This document shows positions 1-9,664 of a stretch of DNA of 64,000 bases, piece by piece. The position numbers and the translations under genes are program-made. Each line of letters starts with the position of its first letter. The first letter of the stretch is position 1. Origin of the DNA: Lachnospiraceae bacterium (lineage in GTDB: Bacteria; Bacillota_A; Clostridia; Lachnospirales; Lachnospiraceae); the NCBI GenBank assembly GCA_009911175.1, contig QXWX01000016.1, positions 29,451 through 93,450 of the forward strand, read 5' to 3'. The notes below the pieces were generated by a model. That model had not been told where the DNA came from. It searched no databases and worked only from the letters and a program-made list of their open reading frames with translations.

Positions 1-682
1 CCGTTCCTGCATGGCCGGCAAAACCTTTGACCGTAATCGTAAGCCATGAAATTGCCACAATATTTTCAACAATTCCTATATCGATATTCTCCTTTTCCAG
101 AATCGGCCCCTGTTCATCATGCAATTCTAAAAATGCTAATATTTCATTTGCTTCCCTGTATGCAGGACATGTATCTTCTGGCAGGTACATCTGCCTGGCC
201 TCTCTTAATGTGATTCCGTCAGAATCCTTGATCCTATCTAATTCTTCCTCGCCAAATATTCCTGCAATATACTGACTGCCAAGCAACACTTGACCAAACC
301 GGGTTCCTTCTTCTTCCATGGTTCCAATAACTTCAAATGGATGCTTTAAAATAATTTTATCCTCTCTTAACATTCTGGCAGCCTCAAGGGCACAGATCAC
401 TCCGCTTATTCCATCATAAGCTCCCGCGCAGCGTACAGTATCCATATGAGACCCCGAAAGTATGGCTGGAAAATTCTTCTCTGAACCCTCTAATCTCCCA
501 TACACATTTCCCACACTATCCTCTCTTACACTTAACCCTATAGCCCGCATTGCATCTTTTAAATACTCTGTGCCCTGGCGATATGTTTGTGTAAAACCAA
601 TTCGAGTAGTTCCTGCTGTACAAGGTTCAGATATCTTTTTAAGCCATTCAATGTGTGATTGGATCCTCCTCATATCTGACAT
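1..682 (-). CDS. M20-family amidohydrolase (N-carbamoyl-amino-acid hydrolase / allantoate deiminase type), C-terminus beyond window
   Basis: The gene runs off the left edge, so only about the first 227 residues are seen. The protein has the metal-ligand signature SGSHMDTV followed by GAYDGISGV, then GTMEEEGTRFG and LELHDEQGPILE, the order found in zinc-dependent hydantoinase/carbamoylase amidases of the M20 family. Such enzymes remove the carbamoyl group from N-carbamoyl amino acids or ureido compounds in the cytoplasm. The ATG at 682 was chosen because a strong AAAGGAGG lies 9 bases upstream; an ATG at 686 is in another frame. The exact substrate (carbamoyl amino acid, allantoate, ureidoglycine) cannot be told from this part. 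Confidence 0.85.
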   Translation of the reverse strand, partial: MSDMRRIQSHIEWLKKISEPCTAGTTRIGFTQTYRQGTEYLKDAMRAIGLSVREDSVGNVYGRLEGSEKNFPAILSGSHMDTVRCAGAYDGISGVICALEAARMLREDKIILKHPFEVIGTMEEEGTRFGQVLLGSQYIAGIFGEEELDRIKDSDGITLREARQMYLPEDTCPAYREANEILAFLELHDEQGPILEKENIDIGIVENIVAISWLTITVKGFAGHAGT

Positions 683-741
683 ACATACTAACCTCCTTTA
701 TTCATATTTTTTGGAATACTATGCTTATAATATTTAGGTTC

Positions 742-769
742 ATTATATATGCCAAAAATGATAATGCAA
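742..769 (-). promoter_or_regulatory. Sigma-A-type promoter of the M20 amidohydrolase gene
   Basis: Read on the minus strand, TTGCAT (764-769) and TATAAT (742-747) are separated by 16 bases and lie about 60 bases upstream of the start codon at 682. A perfect 15-bp palindrome (777-791) sits 7 bp upstream of the -35 box and may be an operator. Confidence 0.6.
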
Positions 770-776
770 TCACAAA

Positions 777-791
777 GACGATATTATCGTC
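777..791. promoter_or_regulatory. 15-bp perfect palindrome, possible operator
   Basis: GACGATA-T-TATCGTC is a perfect dyad just upstream of the promoter of the M20 amidohydrolase gene. Its position suits a regulator-binding site, but no dedicated regulator gene is visible next to it. The rest of 683-997 is AT-rich and holds no convincing gene. Confidence 0.35.
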
Positions 792-944
792 AAATTTCAA
801 ATATTTGTAAAATATATATAAATATGTGAATTTATATTTATGAATTTTTAACAAAAACAGGACTCTGGTACTCAAGATATCAAAGGGCATAAAATTCATT
901 TATTGTGTAGATGCTGGCTGTACTCTTATAACATCCGCGCACAT

Positions 945-982
945 AAAAAGCCACAGACTTCTTTCTTTAGAAATCTGTGGCT
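945..982 (-). terminator. Rho-independent terminator of the AAA-ATPase gene
   Basis: AGCCACAGA (49-57 of the 900s) pairs with TCTGTGGCT (974-982), and on the minus strand the stem is followed by a run of five T. It lies 16 bases after the stop codon at 998. Confidence 0.8.
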
Positions 983-997
983 ATAAAATTTCTTCTT

Positions 998-2608
998 TTA
1001 ATTCAATCTTTCCACCTTACATGTATGTTCCTTCGTTTCCTTACCATACCCGATTCCCACTGCCAGGATCTGTCCGGTGTATTCCGGCAGTTCACCAAGT
1101 TTCCCTTGAAAACGCAGCACATACTCCTTTTCTTTAATCTGCCGGATTGCTTCTTCCGGTGTATGATCCACTTTAAGTTCCAGTATCATACAGTCCTGGT
1201 CCTTTTTTTTCGGATAAAAAATAAAATCCACAAATCCTTTTCCTGCCTTATCTTCCCGCTCAACCCTATATTTATCCCGTGCCGCAAGGTAAGCCAGGTT
1301 CACGACCGCAGACAATTCCGTTTCATTATTATAAGACAAAATCGGTGTTTCCGTGTTATGGGCATATTGCAAAATCAAAGACATGGTATCCGTATCTCCA
1401 TCCAACGTTGCTCTCAACATTTTTGAGGATATCTTTGCCAGACGGTGCACATATCCCAGCGATTCCCTATTCATAAGCATTTCTTCATACTTCATCATCA
1501 ATTCCTTATTCGGTATAAACACTTCTCCGTCTTCGTAAGTCAGTAACCCATAAACCACCATCGCTGAATAAATCTGGTCTTTTGTCTCCAATTCTGCTGC
1601 CGTTGCCGCATATTCCTGCATCCTTGCTTCCACATGTTCCCCTGAGACCATCAGCCCTATATCATCCCTAATATCCTCAATGTTATTCTTGATATAGTAA
1701 AATACGGAATCATATGTTCCTGAACCTGTCCAATAGCCTGCCAGTTGATTATTAGCCAGCGCAGTTACTACGGATCTGGGATTGTACAGACATTCTCCCA
1801 GGGCCGTATGGTAACCGTCATACCACTCTGCCAGTTCTCCTCTGGTAATACGTAGATTTTTCGTATGAGCCATATATCTTGTAAAAAGCATATCCACTTC
1901 CGCTTCTGAAAATCCAAAATATTCTCCAAAGCGAATCTTCGTTGCCATATCATATTCCAAAAACATATTCAGTTCCGATCCATCCGAATATTTTGCGATA
2001 GGAAGAATCCCTGTCATATATGCAAATTCCACATAGATTTTCCCTTTCAGCAAAGATTTCAGAAAAAGAAGAAAATCCATCTTATCTCCCTCTTTGACAA
2101 AGGGCATATGAAACAGCGCATCCCACTCATCGATCACAAAGAAGAATTTCTGTTCTGTTTCTTCAAATATCAAGGAAAACAGATCCCATATCGCTTTATC
2201 CTGATCCAGTCTTAGTTCCGGATATGCTTCCTTCAGATCCTGATAGATTCCTTCTTCTATTCTTGATATATAATTCTGATAGTTTTCACACCCCTTTGGG
2301 ATCTCACTAAAATCAATATAGATCAAATCATATCCATTCAAATATTTTAAATATTGTTTTGATTTCGCGATCTCCAACTGATCGAAAATCTCATGGCTGT
2401 CTTTTGCTTTTCCAAAAAAAGCTCCTATCATGTTTGCCATAACAGTTTTTCCAAAATGCCGCGGCCTTGTAATGCAAAAGAAGCGCTGTTCCCGTCCCAG
2501 CGCAGGTATCAATTCTTCCAACAGTGCAGATTTATCTACAAAATAAGGATCCATCGTAATCATTTTGTACTTATCATAAAGTGCTATACTGTTCAAATAC
2601 ATTGCCAT
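998..2608 (-). CDS. AAA-ATPase-like protein with C-terminal PD-(D/E)XK nuclease-like domain
   Basis: The 536-residue protein has the layout of the AAA-ATPase-like/PDDEXK_9 proteins common in gut anaerobes. The P-loop is RPRHFGKT (residues 48-55, with the RPR-x-FGK form typical of this group), and Walker B is FFFVIDEWD with D160-E161. Near residue 480 a DFIFYP...MILELK pattern resembles the D...ExK core of restriction-endonuclease-fold domains. There is no signal peptide or membrane segment. The biological role of the family is not established; defence or mobile-element association has been suggested by its scattered distribution. It stands alone with its own terminator. The ATG at 2608 has a weak AGAGGCG upstream; an ATG two codons later is equally possible. 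Confidence 0.8.
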   Translation of the reverse strand: MAMYLNSIALYDKYKMITMDPYFVDKSALLEELIPALGREQRFFCITRPRHFGKTVMANMIGAFFGKAKDSHEIFDQLEIAKSKQYLKYLNGYDLIYIDFSEIPKGCENYQNYISRIEEGIYQDLKEAYPELRLDQDKAIWDLFSLIFEETEQKFFFVIDEWDALFHMPFVKEGDKMDFLLFLKSLLKGKIYVEFAYMTGILPIAKYSDGSELNMFLEYDMATKIRFGEYFGFSEAEVDMLFTRYMAHTKNLRITRGELAEWYDGYHTALGECLYNPRSVVTALANNQLAGYWTGSGTYDSVFYYIKNNIEDIRDDIGLMVSGEHVEARMQEYAATAAELETKDQIYSAMVVYGLLTYEDGEVFIPNKELMMKYEEMLMNRESLGYVHRLAKISSKMLRATLDGDTDTMSLILQYAHNTETPILSYNNETELSAVVNLAYLAARDKYRVEREDKAGKGFVDFIFYPKKKDQDCMILELKVDHTPEEAIRQIKEKEYVLRFQGKLGELPEYTGQILAVGIGYGKETKEHTCKVERLN

Positions 2609-2759
2609 AATACGCCTCTTTTCTAAATCCTATATGCTTTCACTGTTTTACTCATTGTAACATACTCTTTTGCATCTGTCCTCTTATTTTCCCAGTTATA
2701 AATGAGAACTTTCAGATCATGAAAAATATCCGGTTGATAAACTTCCTTCCTACATTCTT

Positions 2760-4034
2760 TTATAATATAGCTGCCGTGACTATAAATCCAATAATGGATA
2801 GACCACAGGCGATCGCATTATAGGGAAGCTGGGAAAGCGCATGTTCCATACTATCAATACCTGCGCTTTGGGCCGCCAAAAGCGTTACGTCCGAATAGAA
2901 GCAGGCATGGCTTCCAAAGGTTCCTCCAGAGATCACTGCGGCCATGATCAATACAGGATTTGCGCCGATCACCGCCCCGAGTGGAAATACGATCGGAGTA
3001 ATAATAGAACTCATGCCCCAGTCAGAACCGGTAGAGAATGCCAGAACCGCTCCCAGCACAAATACCATTGCGGGAAATATGGATGGGAACAAAAAGGGTT
3101 CCGCCTTGGCGACAATGTACTCTGTCATTCCCATACTCCCACAAATATCTTTTAATACAAAAGTGACCACATTATTTACACCCATGAACCAGGAAATCAT
3201 ATTACTGAGCAGTGTGACCAGGAATAATCCTGCCGCTACTGAGATGATCAGTCCTGTAGTTGTGCCTGTCATAGCCTGGAACGCGTCTACGATACCGGAG
3301 CTTGTGGAAATTTCATCTATCGGAATACCTACGCCGATACCAAAGGAGCTGAACATATAGACTGCCGCGATCACCAGACCTCCTACCATAATTGCCTGTG
3401 GTATCTGCTTCTTCGGATTCTCCATACTGTCCGCAAATGTACAAACGACCTCAAATCCAAGAAAGTTGAACAGTACCACAGAGATAAAAGAAAGCTCTCC
3501 CAGGCTGTGCGGGAATAAGGAAGAGACTGTCATTGGATTGGCAAATCCTTTTGTCACGCCTGTATATAATCCGAAAATGCCAAGAGCAAGGGCAAGAGCA
3601 ATCTTTACAATCCCCCCAATATTCAAGATCCAGATATTCTCAGATACCGGCGAAGTACTGATCAGGGTAACCACCCAGATAAATACAAATACGCTGATCA
3701 GATATGGCACGGTACCAAGTTCTATGCCAAACATATAATTGATCAGTTCCGGCACCATTACCGCGAGCGAAGTCATCCAGATCTGGAAATTCACCCAGTA
3801 GTACCAGGCGGTTCTCGCACCCCAGCGGCGCCCAAGCGCCCGTTCCGCCCAATCGCACATACCACCTTCGCTTTCATAGGTCGTACCCAGTTCTGCCGCG
3901 ATCAATCCATAGGGCAGTAAAAATGTAAAGATCAAGACAATCCACCAAAAGAACTGGCTGTTTCCGATCGCCGCGACAGGCGCGGCCGCTTCTGCTACAA
4001 ACACAACGCAGATGACGGTCAGCATAAGCTCCAA
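2760..4034 (-). CDS. Chimeric permease: APC amino-acid permease N-terminal part joined to NhaC-type antiporter C-terminal part
   Basis: Residues 1 to about 285 read as an amino-acid/polyamine permease of the APC superfamily: VFVAEAAAPVAAIG in helix 1, EGGMCDWAERALG after helix 2, FNFLGFEVVCTFADSMENPKKQIPQA in the helix-6 region, and SNMISWFMGVNN. From about residue 290 on the text is that of the end of an NhaC-type Na+/H+ antiporter: LKDICGSMGMTEYIV, LAFSTGSDWGMSSIITPI, ISGGTFGSHACFYSDVTLLAA and SMEHALSQLPYNA. The reading frame is intact across the joint (near 3170). The start is uncertain: the TTG at 4034 has no clear ribosome-binding site, and the frame is open without ATG or GTG up to a stop at 4077-4079. 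It may be a functional fusion or a deletion relic of two transporter genes. Confidence 0.7.
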   Translation of the reverse strand: MELMLTVICVVFVAEAAAPVAAIGNSQFFWWIVLIFTFLLPYGLIAAELGTTYESEGGMCDWAERALGRRWGARTAWYYWVNFQIWMTSLAVMVPELINYMFGIELGTVPYLISVFVFIWVVTLISTSPVSENIWILNIGGIVKIALALALGIFGLYTGVTKGFANPMTVSSLFPHSLGELSFISVVLFNFLGFEVVCTFADSMENPKKQIPQAIMVGGLVIAAVYMFSSFGIGVGIPIDEISTSSGIVDAFQAMTGTTTGLIISVAAGLFLVTLLSNMISWFMGVNNVVTFVLKDICGSMGMTEYIVAKAEPFLFPSIFPAMVFVLGAVLAFSTGSDWGMSSIITPIVFPLGAVIGANPVLIMAAVISGGTFGSHACFYSDVTLLAAQSAGIDSMEHALSQLPYNAIACGLSIIGFIVTAAIL

Positions 4035-4236
4035 TATACTAATTTTTTTCCAACTGTACGGTTTTTTAAAGCCACTTTAAAGTTAATAGCAAATATGCAA
4101 AAACTATTTCTGACACTCCGCTTAAAATATCCTTTAATTTATAAGAATTGCGCCAGCAAAATAATATAACTTATATTCTTGACATTGAAATTACTTTAAA
4201 AACTAAACTATAGATAGGTCAAAGTACTATTACCCG

Positions 4237-4268
4237 AAAAAAGATGCCCCTCTATTGAAAGGACATCC
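4237..4268 (-). terminator. Terminator of the PilZ-like gene
   Basis: On the minus strand a GATGTCC / GGGGCATC stem is followed by six T (4237-4242). It lies 46 bases downstream of the stop of the PilZ-like gene. Confidence 0.65.
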
Positions 4269-4314
4269 CTTACTCCGAATTTCATTCCTCTATACCGCTT
4301 TTCTCTCCGGCGGT

Positions 4315-4917
4315 CTACCAAATCCTTCCGGACTGCCTCATATGAAGGTACCGCTTGATGTCCCTCTCCGCCCCCTTGGGATAATCCAAAAGCTGACAGC
4401 CATAGCCATATCTCCCGTCCCGGAATATCTCTTCCCGCAGGATGCTGACCCGCATCCGGTACTCCGTCTCTACAAAACAGTAAGAAAATTCAGCCATATC
4501 TCCGCACTGCTGTCTCGTCCAGGTGATAAAATAAATTCCGCCCTCACCAATATTTTGAATGACACCCGTATATTCTTCCTGATTCGAACCCGTAAACACC
4601 GTCTCCTTCTCCATGCCTGACCGCAGGCTCCTCCGCCCCTCTACGATCTCAGTCACTTCCAGGATCTCGCAGTCCGCAAGCCACGGCGCCTGTATGGACG
4701 CGTCATAGTTCCTCCTGACAGCAAGCCCGCAGTACGCCTTGACACACCCGATCTGGCTGTCAAAAAAATCAATCCGGATCTTTGCCGTATCGGACAACTC
4801 CTGCTCCCGGTTCAAAAGCAGTAAGATCTGTCCCCCGTCGCATTTTACCGGGATCCTTTTCTGATCCCCCTGGTCTGACTCATAGACAGCACAGACCGTA
4901 CAATGATTTAAAACCAT
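4315..4917 (-). CDS. PilZ-domain-like protein (possible c-di-GMP effector)
   Basis: A soluble 200-residue protein. The second half has RRSLR (the RxxxR arm of PilZ) followed about 30 residues later by IQNIGEGGIYF, which fits the (D/N)xSxxG turn of PilZ domains in loosened form, with the serine replaced by glycine. The N-terminal half resembles the YcgR-like extension seen on flagellar brake proteins, but no motif secures that. PilZ proteins bind cyclic di-GMP and adjust motility or surface polysaccharide. The start at 4917 is preferred over the ATG 48 bases upstream because AAAGGAGG lies 8 bases before it. No partner gene for c-di-GMP is visible in the window. Confidence 0.55.
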   Translation of the reverse strand: MVLNHCTVCAVYESDQGDQKRIPVKCDGGQILLLLNREQELSDTAKIRIDFFDSQIGCVKAYCGLAVRRNYDASIQAPWLADCEILEVTEIVEGRRSLRSGMEKETVFTGSNQEEYTGVIQNIGEGGIYFITWTRQQCGDMAEFSYCFVETEYRMRVSILREEIFRDGRYGYGCQLLDYPKGAERDIKRYLHMRQSGRIW

Positions 4918-4978
4918 CGGTTTTGCTCCTCCTTTTAACAGTAACATTATATCGAATCTTTCCACTCATTACAAGACG

Positions 4979-5019
4979 AAAAAGACACCAAAAATCCGAA
5001 CTGAATTTTTGATGTCTTT
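4979..5019 (-). terminator. Terminator of the 445-residue unknown gene
   Basis: The stem (4981-4995 with 5005-5019, loop CCGAACTGA) is followed on the minus strand by a T-rich tract. It is nearly identical, loop included, to the terminator at 9312-9353 behind the truncated copy of the same gene. Confidence 0.75.
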
Positions 5020-5029
5020 CTATTAAAAC

Positions 5030-6367
5030 TTATACTGATTTTAGTTTTTCGAAAACTCGGGCCAGTCTGCCGCTGCTCTCTTTTTGCTCTTCATAGTATG
5101 ACCTTGCTCTAAGTATGTCAGATGCCTGGATAGATGATCTTCCATCCAATAATGCCTGAATAAAATAGTCATACATCCGTTCTTCGTTCTGAAACCGACT
5201 CAAATAATTATTCCCGCTGTTCATCCATTGGGAAGAATATTCATTCGCAGCAATGATTACTTCGGTCGCCGGATCAACGTAACGTAAAAACTGATTTTCA
5301 ACATCCTTATGAGAAATCACATTCATGTCTGATAATTCTGCCAGCAGATTATAAAAATCACTTTTTGACATATTTTCTACATCATACTTTTCCCGCAGAT
5401 ATTGAATCTGATCCTCTGTAAGTTCGCTGGTGCCATCGGCATTCCAATTGATTTTCTTATCCAATTTGATGCCTAATATTTCCAGAAATGTTTTACTGAT
5501 GGATTCATAATCATCTTCTTCCGCAGATGGCGCTGCCTCTCCTTTTTCCTCTATCTTATTTTCCAATGGATGATTTCTGCTACGCGAAAAAAGTTCCTGT
5601 TCCAGATGCATCTCGAATAGTTCTTCGGAACATTTCCTTGCCATACCGGATATCATCCTCTCCCTGACAGCACTGGAATATAGTTCCAGATTTCTTTTAT
5701 TTTCTTCGGTAAAACCTTTAAGAATATCTGAATCCAATTTAAAACAGGTTCCAATCTGGTCCGCCCCAGTATGATTTTCCGTGAAACCAAGCACAAAATC
5801 CAAATCCTTTTTGTTCCACGCAGCCTCTTCCGATAAATGCAGCCTGTTACAGGACGCAAGCCTCTCCTGGGTTCTGGCGACATAATCAAACCGTTCATTG
5901 ATCCCCGGCTCTTTCCCATAAAGATTGTAGGTGCTGATCGAATAATGCTCTCCCGGCCTGAAATATGACAGCGCATCTATTTCGAGAGGTGTGGTATTAT
6001 AAGGATCAATCTGCTTCACGGCAATTTTTTCTTCAAACAGCTTTCCATGTTCATCTACACCTCTCGCAACCAATACCGGGTTCTCTTCTGTGGATTCGGC
6101 CGCATGGAAAAATCTGTATTCAATCCCTGGAGCCTTCCAGTGCCATCCAATCGCTTTTTCATCCTTGAGCGCATACTTACATGGTATTTTATCCACCTCG
6201 GCACAGGTTTCAAAATTTCCTCTCGATACCGTTTTAATATAGCGCTCCTCATTGGGCACTTTTGTCCCAAATCCGCCTTTCCCACTGTATTTCCTGTTGC
6301 TATTTGCTGTCTGATATTTGCGCTGTCCTGCTGTCAAAAGAGCATTCCCATAAGAAATGCCAATCAT
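5030..6367 (-). CDS. Unknown 445-residue protein (intact member of a locally duplicated family)
   Basis: I do not recognise this family. The protein is hydrophilic with no signal peptide or membrane segment. It starts with a Ser/Gly/Lys-rich stretch (residues 13-40), has a Tyr/Glu-rich middle and an acidic linker around residues 265-290 (EEDDYES), then a charged helical end. The segment from TEDQIQYLREKYDVENMSK to the C-terminus looks helical, with an alternation typical of EF-hand-less structural proteins. AAGGAGGGG lies upstream of the ATG at 6367. A truncated homologue with the same terminator lies at 9364-9664, so the gene was once duplicated. The neighbours are a BlaI/M56 regulatory pair and another unknown protein, which suggests but does not prove a common surface-stress function. 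Confidence 0.6.
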   Translation of the reverse strand: MIGISYGNALLTAGQRKYQTANSNRKYSGKGGFGTKVPNEERYIKTVSRGNFETCAEVDKIPCKYALKDEKAIGWHWKAPGIEYRFFHAAESTEENPVLVARGVDEHGKLFEEKIAVKQIDPYNTTPLEIDALSYFRPGEHYSISTYNLYGKEPGINERFDYVARTQERLASCNRLHLSEEAAWNKKDLDFVLGFTENHTGADQIGTCFKLDSDILKGFTEENKRNLELYSSAVRERMISGMARKCSEELFEMHLEQELFSRSRNHPLENKIEEKGEAAPSAEEDDYESISKTFLEILGIKLDKKINWNADGTSELTEDQIQYLREKYDVENMSKSDFYNLLAELSDMNVISHKDVENQFLRYVDPATEVIIAANEYSSQWMNSGNNYLSRFQNEERMYDYFIQALLDGRSSIQASDILRARSYYEEQKESSGRLARVFEKLKSV

Positions 6368-9363: not shown

Positions 9364-9664
9364 TCAGGCTGATGCCTTAAATTTGCCAAAAACTCGGGCT
9401 AGTACAGCATTGCGTATATAATGGTGAATAATGCGCCTGATATTTTTGTCAGGACAAGGCGTAGGTTCCAATCCGATCCGCCCCGGCATGATTTTCCGTG
9501 AACCCGAGCACAAAATCCAAATCCTTTTTATTCCACGCAGCCTCTTCCGATAAATGCAGCCTGCTACAAGATGCAAGCCTCTCCTGGGTTCTGGCGACAT
9601 AATCAAACCGTTCATTGATTCCCGGCTCTTTCCCATTAAGATTGAATGTCAATGCATTTTTCAA
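9364..9664 (-). pseudogene. Truncated copy of the 445-residue unknown gene
   Basis: From 9645 down to about 9470 the minus strand encodes NGKEPGINERFDYVARTQER and onward through GFTENHAGADRIGTY, almost identical to residues 148-207 of the intact protein at 5030-6367. The frame then stops, and 80 bases later a second piece reads VLARVFGKFKAS, equal to the intact C-terminus (LARVFEKLKSV). The region between these pieces and everything before residue 146 is gone. It is an internally deleted, non-functional copy. A short open frame could still be translated from the ATG at 9664. Confidence 0.85.

Follow-up and report, generated by a model that had tools for sequence, protein, structure and literature searches.

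An in-frame joint between aguD-like and nhaC-like genes in a Lachnospiraceae contig is most likely the relic of a deletion in an agmatine operon

Does an open reading frame (ORF) that begins as an amino-acid permease and ends as a sodium/proton antiporter encode a new type of transporter, or is it what a deletion between neighbouring genes has left behind? The question is raised by a chimeric ORF at positions 2760 to 4034 on the minus strand of the window, by which we mean the whole stretch of 64,000 nucleotides of Lachnospiraceae DNA that was analysed. As delimited by the ORF list and by Pfam searches of the whole protein and of its halves, it has 424 codons when read from a TTG codon at 4034 (421 from an ATG codon at 4025), and its product is the same protein as P0001 in our protein search. 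An earlier note, made from the letters alone, had placed motifs of the APC superfamily up to about residue 285 and NhaC motifs from about residue 291 in one intact frame, and had offered both answers to the question. The ORF indeed has no internal stop, and it reads as an APC permease through residue 288 and as an NhaC-type antiporter from residue 290.

This division holds when the two parts are searched separately with Pfam, as the earlier note had proposed. On the whole protein, AA_permease_2 matches residues 10-291 (E 8e-31) and Na_H_antiporter matches residues 212-420 (E 3.7e-10), the latter starting so early that its outer edge intrudes into the APC part. Searched by themselves, residues 1-285 show no match to an antiporter profile, and residues 286-424 match Na_H_antiporter with E 2.1e-14 over profile positions 174-301 of 303. 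The permease match ends at profile position 300 of 427, and with helices 9-12 absent the second half of the APC fold is incomplete. AguD, the agmatine:putrescine antiporter of the agmatine deiminase operon, belongs to the APC family, whose members of solved structure include AdiC and GadC, and these two are the best PDB sequence matches. The AguD name of this half rests on operon context, since no NCBIfam antiporter model reaches its cut-off either on the AguD half of the chimera or on intact AguD: the best models on the left half are of the GadC kind and the tyrosine-tyramine antiporter kind, and those on the right half are Tet(35), ArcD, and NhaC, all far under their curated cut-offs.

Comparison with intact relatives gives the extent of each part. 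The aguD-derived part (positions 3171 to 4050, minus strand), traced by tblastn, blastn, and protein identity to the full-length AguD P0006, represents about the first two thirds of that gene. Residues 1-288 align throughout with intact AguD at 57-82% identity, and by tblastn the intact AguD of locus L013 matches at 57% over window positions 4049-3171. The nhaC-derived part (positions 2763 to 3170, minus strand), traced by Pfam and protein identity, holds the last 133-136 of about 451-455 residues; where a full-length NhaC has some 450 residues, here the protein is present only from residue 317 of 451 (in P0122) onward. It is 85-86% identical to the nhaC products encoded near agu genes in genomes G001, G004, G005, and G008, and 88% identical to that of locus L082. 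The Pfam split together with the DNA and protein matches of these relatives bears out the in-frame merger of two unrelated transporter families.

The joint itself lies at 3165 to 3171 (minus strand), within the codons for N288-V289-V290, as judged from the codons of relatives and the ends of blastn matches. DNA matches to intact relatives run down to 3171 for aguD and up to 3169 for nhaC, one aguD relative (L057) matches down to 3166, and the protein matches by tblastn switch at 3171/3170. The codons across the joint are AAT AAT GTG GTC ACT TTT, at a place that corresponds to ..GVNN(V/T/A).. in intact AguD and, in intact NhaC, to ..MLLVTFVLKD... The two folds had been supposed to merge in a loop. 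The shared sequence stops at residue 297 of 451 in P0006, and the AlphaFold2 model of this intact AguD puts the joint instead near the end of transmembrane helix 8 (residues 271-304), so that helices 9-12 are lost.

The other end of the ORF is damaged as well, since homology to aguD extends beyond any start codon. By tblastn and blastn it continues 15-16 bases upstream of the first possible start, to 4049-4050, and between the upstream stop and TTG 4034 there is no in-frame start codon, though intact AguD starts there. TTG 4034 or ATG 4025 could serve as the start of a protein 9 or 12 residues short. Between the damaged 5' end and the edge of collinearity with the nearest genome, G001, lies a stretch from 4051 to 4236 (minus strand), where the match to contig C33 of G001 stops at 4237. 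Promoter-like sites numbered 7, against 4.4 (sd 2.4) in shuffles, and terminator-like sites 2, against 1.6 (sd 1.2).

The intact genes were found together in relatives. The genus of the window is apparently Schaedlerella, and of 12 genus genomes compared, four (G001, G004, G005, and G008) carry an intact aguD and an intact nhaC near each other on one contig and one strand, in the order aguD-aguA-aguB-(arcC)-nhaC. Between the two points that are joined in the window there are 4236 bases in G001, 5051 in G004, 5014 in G005, and 5034 in G008. The intervening genes of G008 pass the NCBIfam cut-offs for agmatine deiminase, putrescine carbamoyltransferase, and carbamate kinase, and those of the other three genomes were assigned to families by similarity. 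In G001 (L015 / L085) no carbamate kinase match lies between aguB and nhaC, and one is present in the other three. Divergently upstream, G008 has a gene with a LuxR-type DNA-binding domain, which has relatives in G001, G004, and G005. More widely, aguD is present in 73 of 74 loci from named genomes, and in every one of these 73 the same strand carries, no more than 8 kb away, one or more of aguA (in 69), aguB (in 69), and arcC (in 51). An NhaC-like match follows aguD within 8 kb in five of the 73; four are the genus genomes named above, and in the fifth the identity is below 28%. A pair consisting of nhaC followed by a kinase-like gene (named by eye) was seen at L013-L016, L082, and L096-L100, with and without agu genes nearby, and as it also stands at loci without agu genes, this pair may predate the linkage to agu.

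In the window, by contrast with this layout, only the two ends of the arrangement are present. In tblastn searches of the 64 kb, aguA, aguB, arcC, and aguR all went without a credible match (lowest E 0.013), and thus the agmatine deiminase operon, with aguA, aguB, and carbamate kinase genes beside aguD, is not found within it. A deletion of 4.2-5.1 kb from the intact layout yields the ORF, and of the two answers that the earlier note had offered, the relic of a deletion between neighbours is therefore the better supported, given four genus genomes with both full genes on one strand and the agmatine genes between them. The companion expectation, that close relatives would have two full genes at this very place, was borne out in part: both genes are present in the four genomes, but they lie elsewhere in the genome, and at the place in G001 that corresponds to the window neither is present.

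We propose, with high confidence, that the fused gene is a decaying and most likely non-functional relic of a deletion from an agmatine operon. An ancestral operon aguD-aguA-aguB-(arcC)-nhaC would have lost about 5 kb by one deletion with one edge where helix 8 of AguD ends and the other near nhaC codon 317. Gone with it would be the final third of aguD and the initial 70% of nhaC, together with the agmatine deiminase and putrescine carbamoyltransferase genes and any carbamate kinase gene between them, while the reading frame would have been kept by chance. A product without AguD helices 9-12 and most of NhaC would most likely transport nothing. The ORF would now be drifting, its usual start codon gone and residues that are invariant in intact relatives varying between its alleles. 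The joint, the gene order of the intact relatives, the lack of a credible match to the other agu genes in the window, and the variation at conserved sites are observed; the deletion as the mechanism, its size, and the loss of function are inferred. With the AguD half at only 57% identity to AguD of the four genus genomes that have the intact order, and with the block from 1 to 4236 absent from this place in the nearest genome, G001, the agu cluster of the window probably came from another lineage, before or after the deletion; the closest AguD among the matches listed is at 82% and the closest NhaC at 90%.

An alternative, which we regard as unlikely, is that the fusion arose by recombination or insertion, an nhaC fragment having been brought beside a truncated aguD, rather than by a simple deletion within an operon. 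The surroundings lend it something. G001 matches the window at 95-100% over most of positions 4237-30000, and contig C33 of G001 matches at 99% only down to 4237, beyond which G001 continues with sigma-factor-like, ABC-type, and AddAB-like genes (named by eye from translations). Because the match ends there, the block from 1 to 4236 is lineage-specific at that place. The agu operon of G001 lies elsewhere, and both halves of the chimera are distant from it: the AguD half has 57% identity with its counterparts in G001, G004, G005, and G008, whereas the AguD proteins of G001, G004, and G005 are 93-98% identical to that of G008. In two genus genomes, G002 and G003, the carbamate kinase gene is followed by genes other than nhaC, and in G012 the contig stops at that point. 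Set against this, the same strand and the same gene order in four genus genomes mean that one deletion is sufficient.

Other places in the window also stand out in these comparisons. At about 6562/6563 and about 7345 it has 834 and 2243 bases fewer than G001:C33, with flanks 97-100% identical, and each missing segment takes in a single long ORF of G001, wholly or for the most part. Positions 9399-9465 hold a dispersed repeat of about 67 bases; G001 has at least 18 copies of it at 92-97%, and close to many of these lies an inverted partner. An AAA-ATPase_like / PDDEXK_9 gene at 998-2608 recurs many times in the genus genomes, in part or in full, at about 65-80%.

We also considered that selection might maintain the fusion as a working membrane protein with a new role in transport or regulation, an explanation that is compatible with an origin by deletion and that we consider very unlikely. 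How widespread the fused form is bears directly on it. The protein search scored 7996 candidates and gave 3043 matches, and among the best 120, which were examined, both halves occur in one protein in five near-identical clusters, P0001-P0005. Behind these stand 20, 2, 2, 13, and 14 contigs, 51 in total and not necessarily all independent. The next match is P0006, a full-length AguD (82% over 70% of the query), and the C-terminal part alone finds full-length NhaC of 451-455 residues at 85-90% for the best (best 120 of 759 matches), so that the closest intact progenitors among the matches listed are at 82% (AguD) and 90% (NhaC). No fused form was seen among the whole genomes of 41 relatives, 397 family members, and 12 genus members, sets that overlap; for the family and the genus members the E limit was 1e-50. 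A degenerate pattern for the joint gave no match in named-genome contigs and none in viral contigs; this search takes exact matches only and may leave out records very near the window. In these searches the fused form is thus not widespread, and the suggestion of a new transporter type finds no backing in its distribution, as it was seen in a single near-identical set. In favor of function, none of the five alleles (419-421 residues), with the contigs behind them, has a broken frame, but broken alleles would be missing from a protein database.

The five alleles show how the sequence has changed. In the AguD half 11 of 285 sites vary, and six of these sites belong to the 77 columns that show no variation across 112 rows of intact AguD (from 114 matches, P0007-P0120, two dropped by length). 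In two intact control pairs, S13-S16 (16 differences) and S17-S19 (22), chosen from ten pairs counted, none of 38 differences falls on an invariant column (Fisher 3e-5 against 6/11). Nine of the ten pairs have no difference at such columns and the most distant, S16-S17, has 2 of 80; the pairs share sequences, and L94-L95 is not independent, as L095 is P0112, one of the 112 rows. Compared with random placement over 77 of 285 columns, six of 11 gives p 0.08, with no sign of avoidance. Four of the 45 differences between P0001 and P0006 are at invariant columns, P0006 itself departing at 2 of 77, and P0003-P0005 have a 2-residue deletion. These differences, like the usual start position without a start codon, speak against a selected protein. 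Other measures are neutral or lean the other way. The relative rate of the AguD half is not significantly raised (P0001 against P0006 with three outgroups: 12/9, 15/16, and 14/10), so most of its divergence need not postdate the fusion. Of the 120 columns that 97% of intact rows conserve, 11-14 are changed in the chimera alleles, 10 in P0006, and as many as 17 in individual intact rows, which places the chimera within the intact range. The NhaC half varies at 1 of 133 sites, on an invariant column, which is not significantly less than 11 of 285 (p 0.11); for its dN/dS, from which the L053 row, one codon out of register, was left out, synonymous sites are saturated in the window pairs, so that the ratio is uninformative. 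The case for decay therefore rests on differences between alleles, which postdate the fusion and fall at few sites.

Structural modeling also counts against a functional chimera. With the same 27 rows, AlphaFold2 gave the chimera a mean pLDDT of 55.3 and a pTM of 0.56, against 85.0 and 0.85 for the intact control P0006, and nearly all residues from 290 on are below 50; fewer rows covered the NhaC half than the AguD half, and the low score is no proof of misfolding. A Foldseek search with this poor model returned APC transporters including AdiC and GadC, with rmsd 5.6-15.0 in the ten best rows, and was given no weight. A fusion that is both expressed and retained, serving one lineage related to Schaedlerella as a new membrane protein in which some eight APC helices precede an NhaC tail, is if anything slightly less probable still; were it so, the nearly invariant NhaC tail would be the selected part. 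An assembly chimera, for which nothing speaks apart from the odd structure, can be set aside with near certainty, because both halves are joined in all the contigs of the five clusters and P0004 is recorded from three sources.

A deletion from an agmatine operon is thus our preferred reading of the fused gene, and the window may not be the only such case. In G009, of the same genus (L108, G009:C11, about 4088-6043), pieces of aguD, aguA, aguB, and arcC stand in order, each with missing parts, and in aguB and arcC the matched pieces flanking about 200 missing residues touch, as after internal deletions. The probable scar in the window and G009 are two signs of loss of the agmatine deiminase operon in the genus, and these sequences suggest that deletions have eliminated the operon on two or more occasions. 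Such losses bear on which strains can convert agmatine to putrescine. The chimera is ordinary as biology and is useful as a warning for annotation, in that an open frame left after a deletion can be entered by automatic annotation as a 421-residue transporter with domains of two families (P0001).

Compared with AguD, the chimera shares residues 1-288 but is short of 9 residues (from TTG) or 12 (from ATG) at its beginning and ends before the final third with helices 9-12. Compared with the NhaC-type Na+/H+ antiporter family (PF03553), it is 85-90% identical over residues 290-424 but is without the first 70%. Fusion pseudogenes can remain when a deletion takes out the DNA between two neighbours, and the chimera is likewise an in-frame joint of what were probably neighbouring genes; it differs in that the parts come from unrelated transporter families and in that the frame is still open. 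Enterococcus faecalis has an aguBDAC operon with a divergent aguR (PMC3796520). With that arrangement the genus genomes share the gene set and a divergent upstream gene with a LuxR-type domain (tested in G008), whereas four of them have the order aguD-aguA-aguB-(arcC)-nhaC, of which the window keeps just the two ends.
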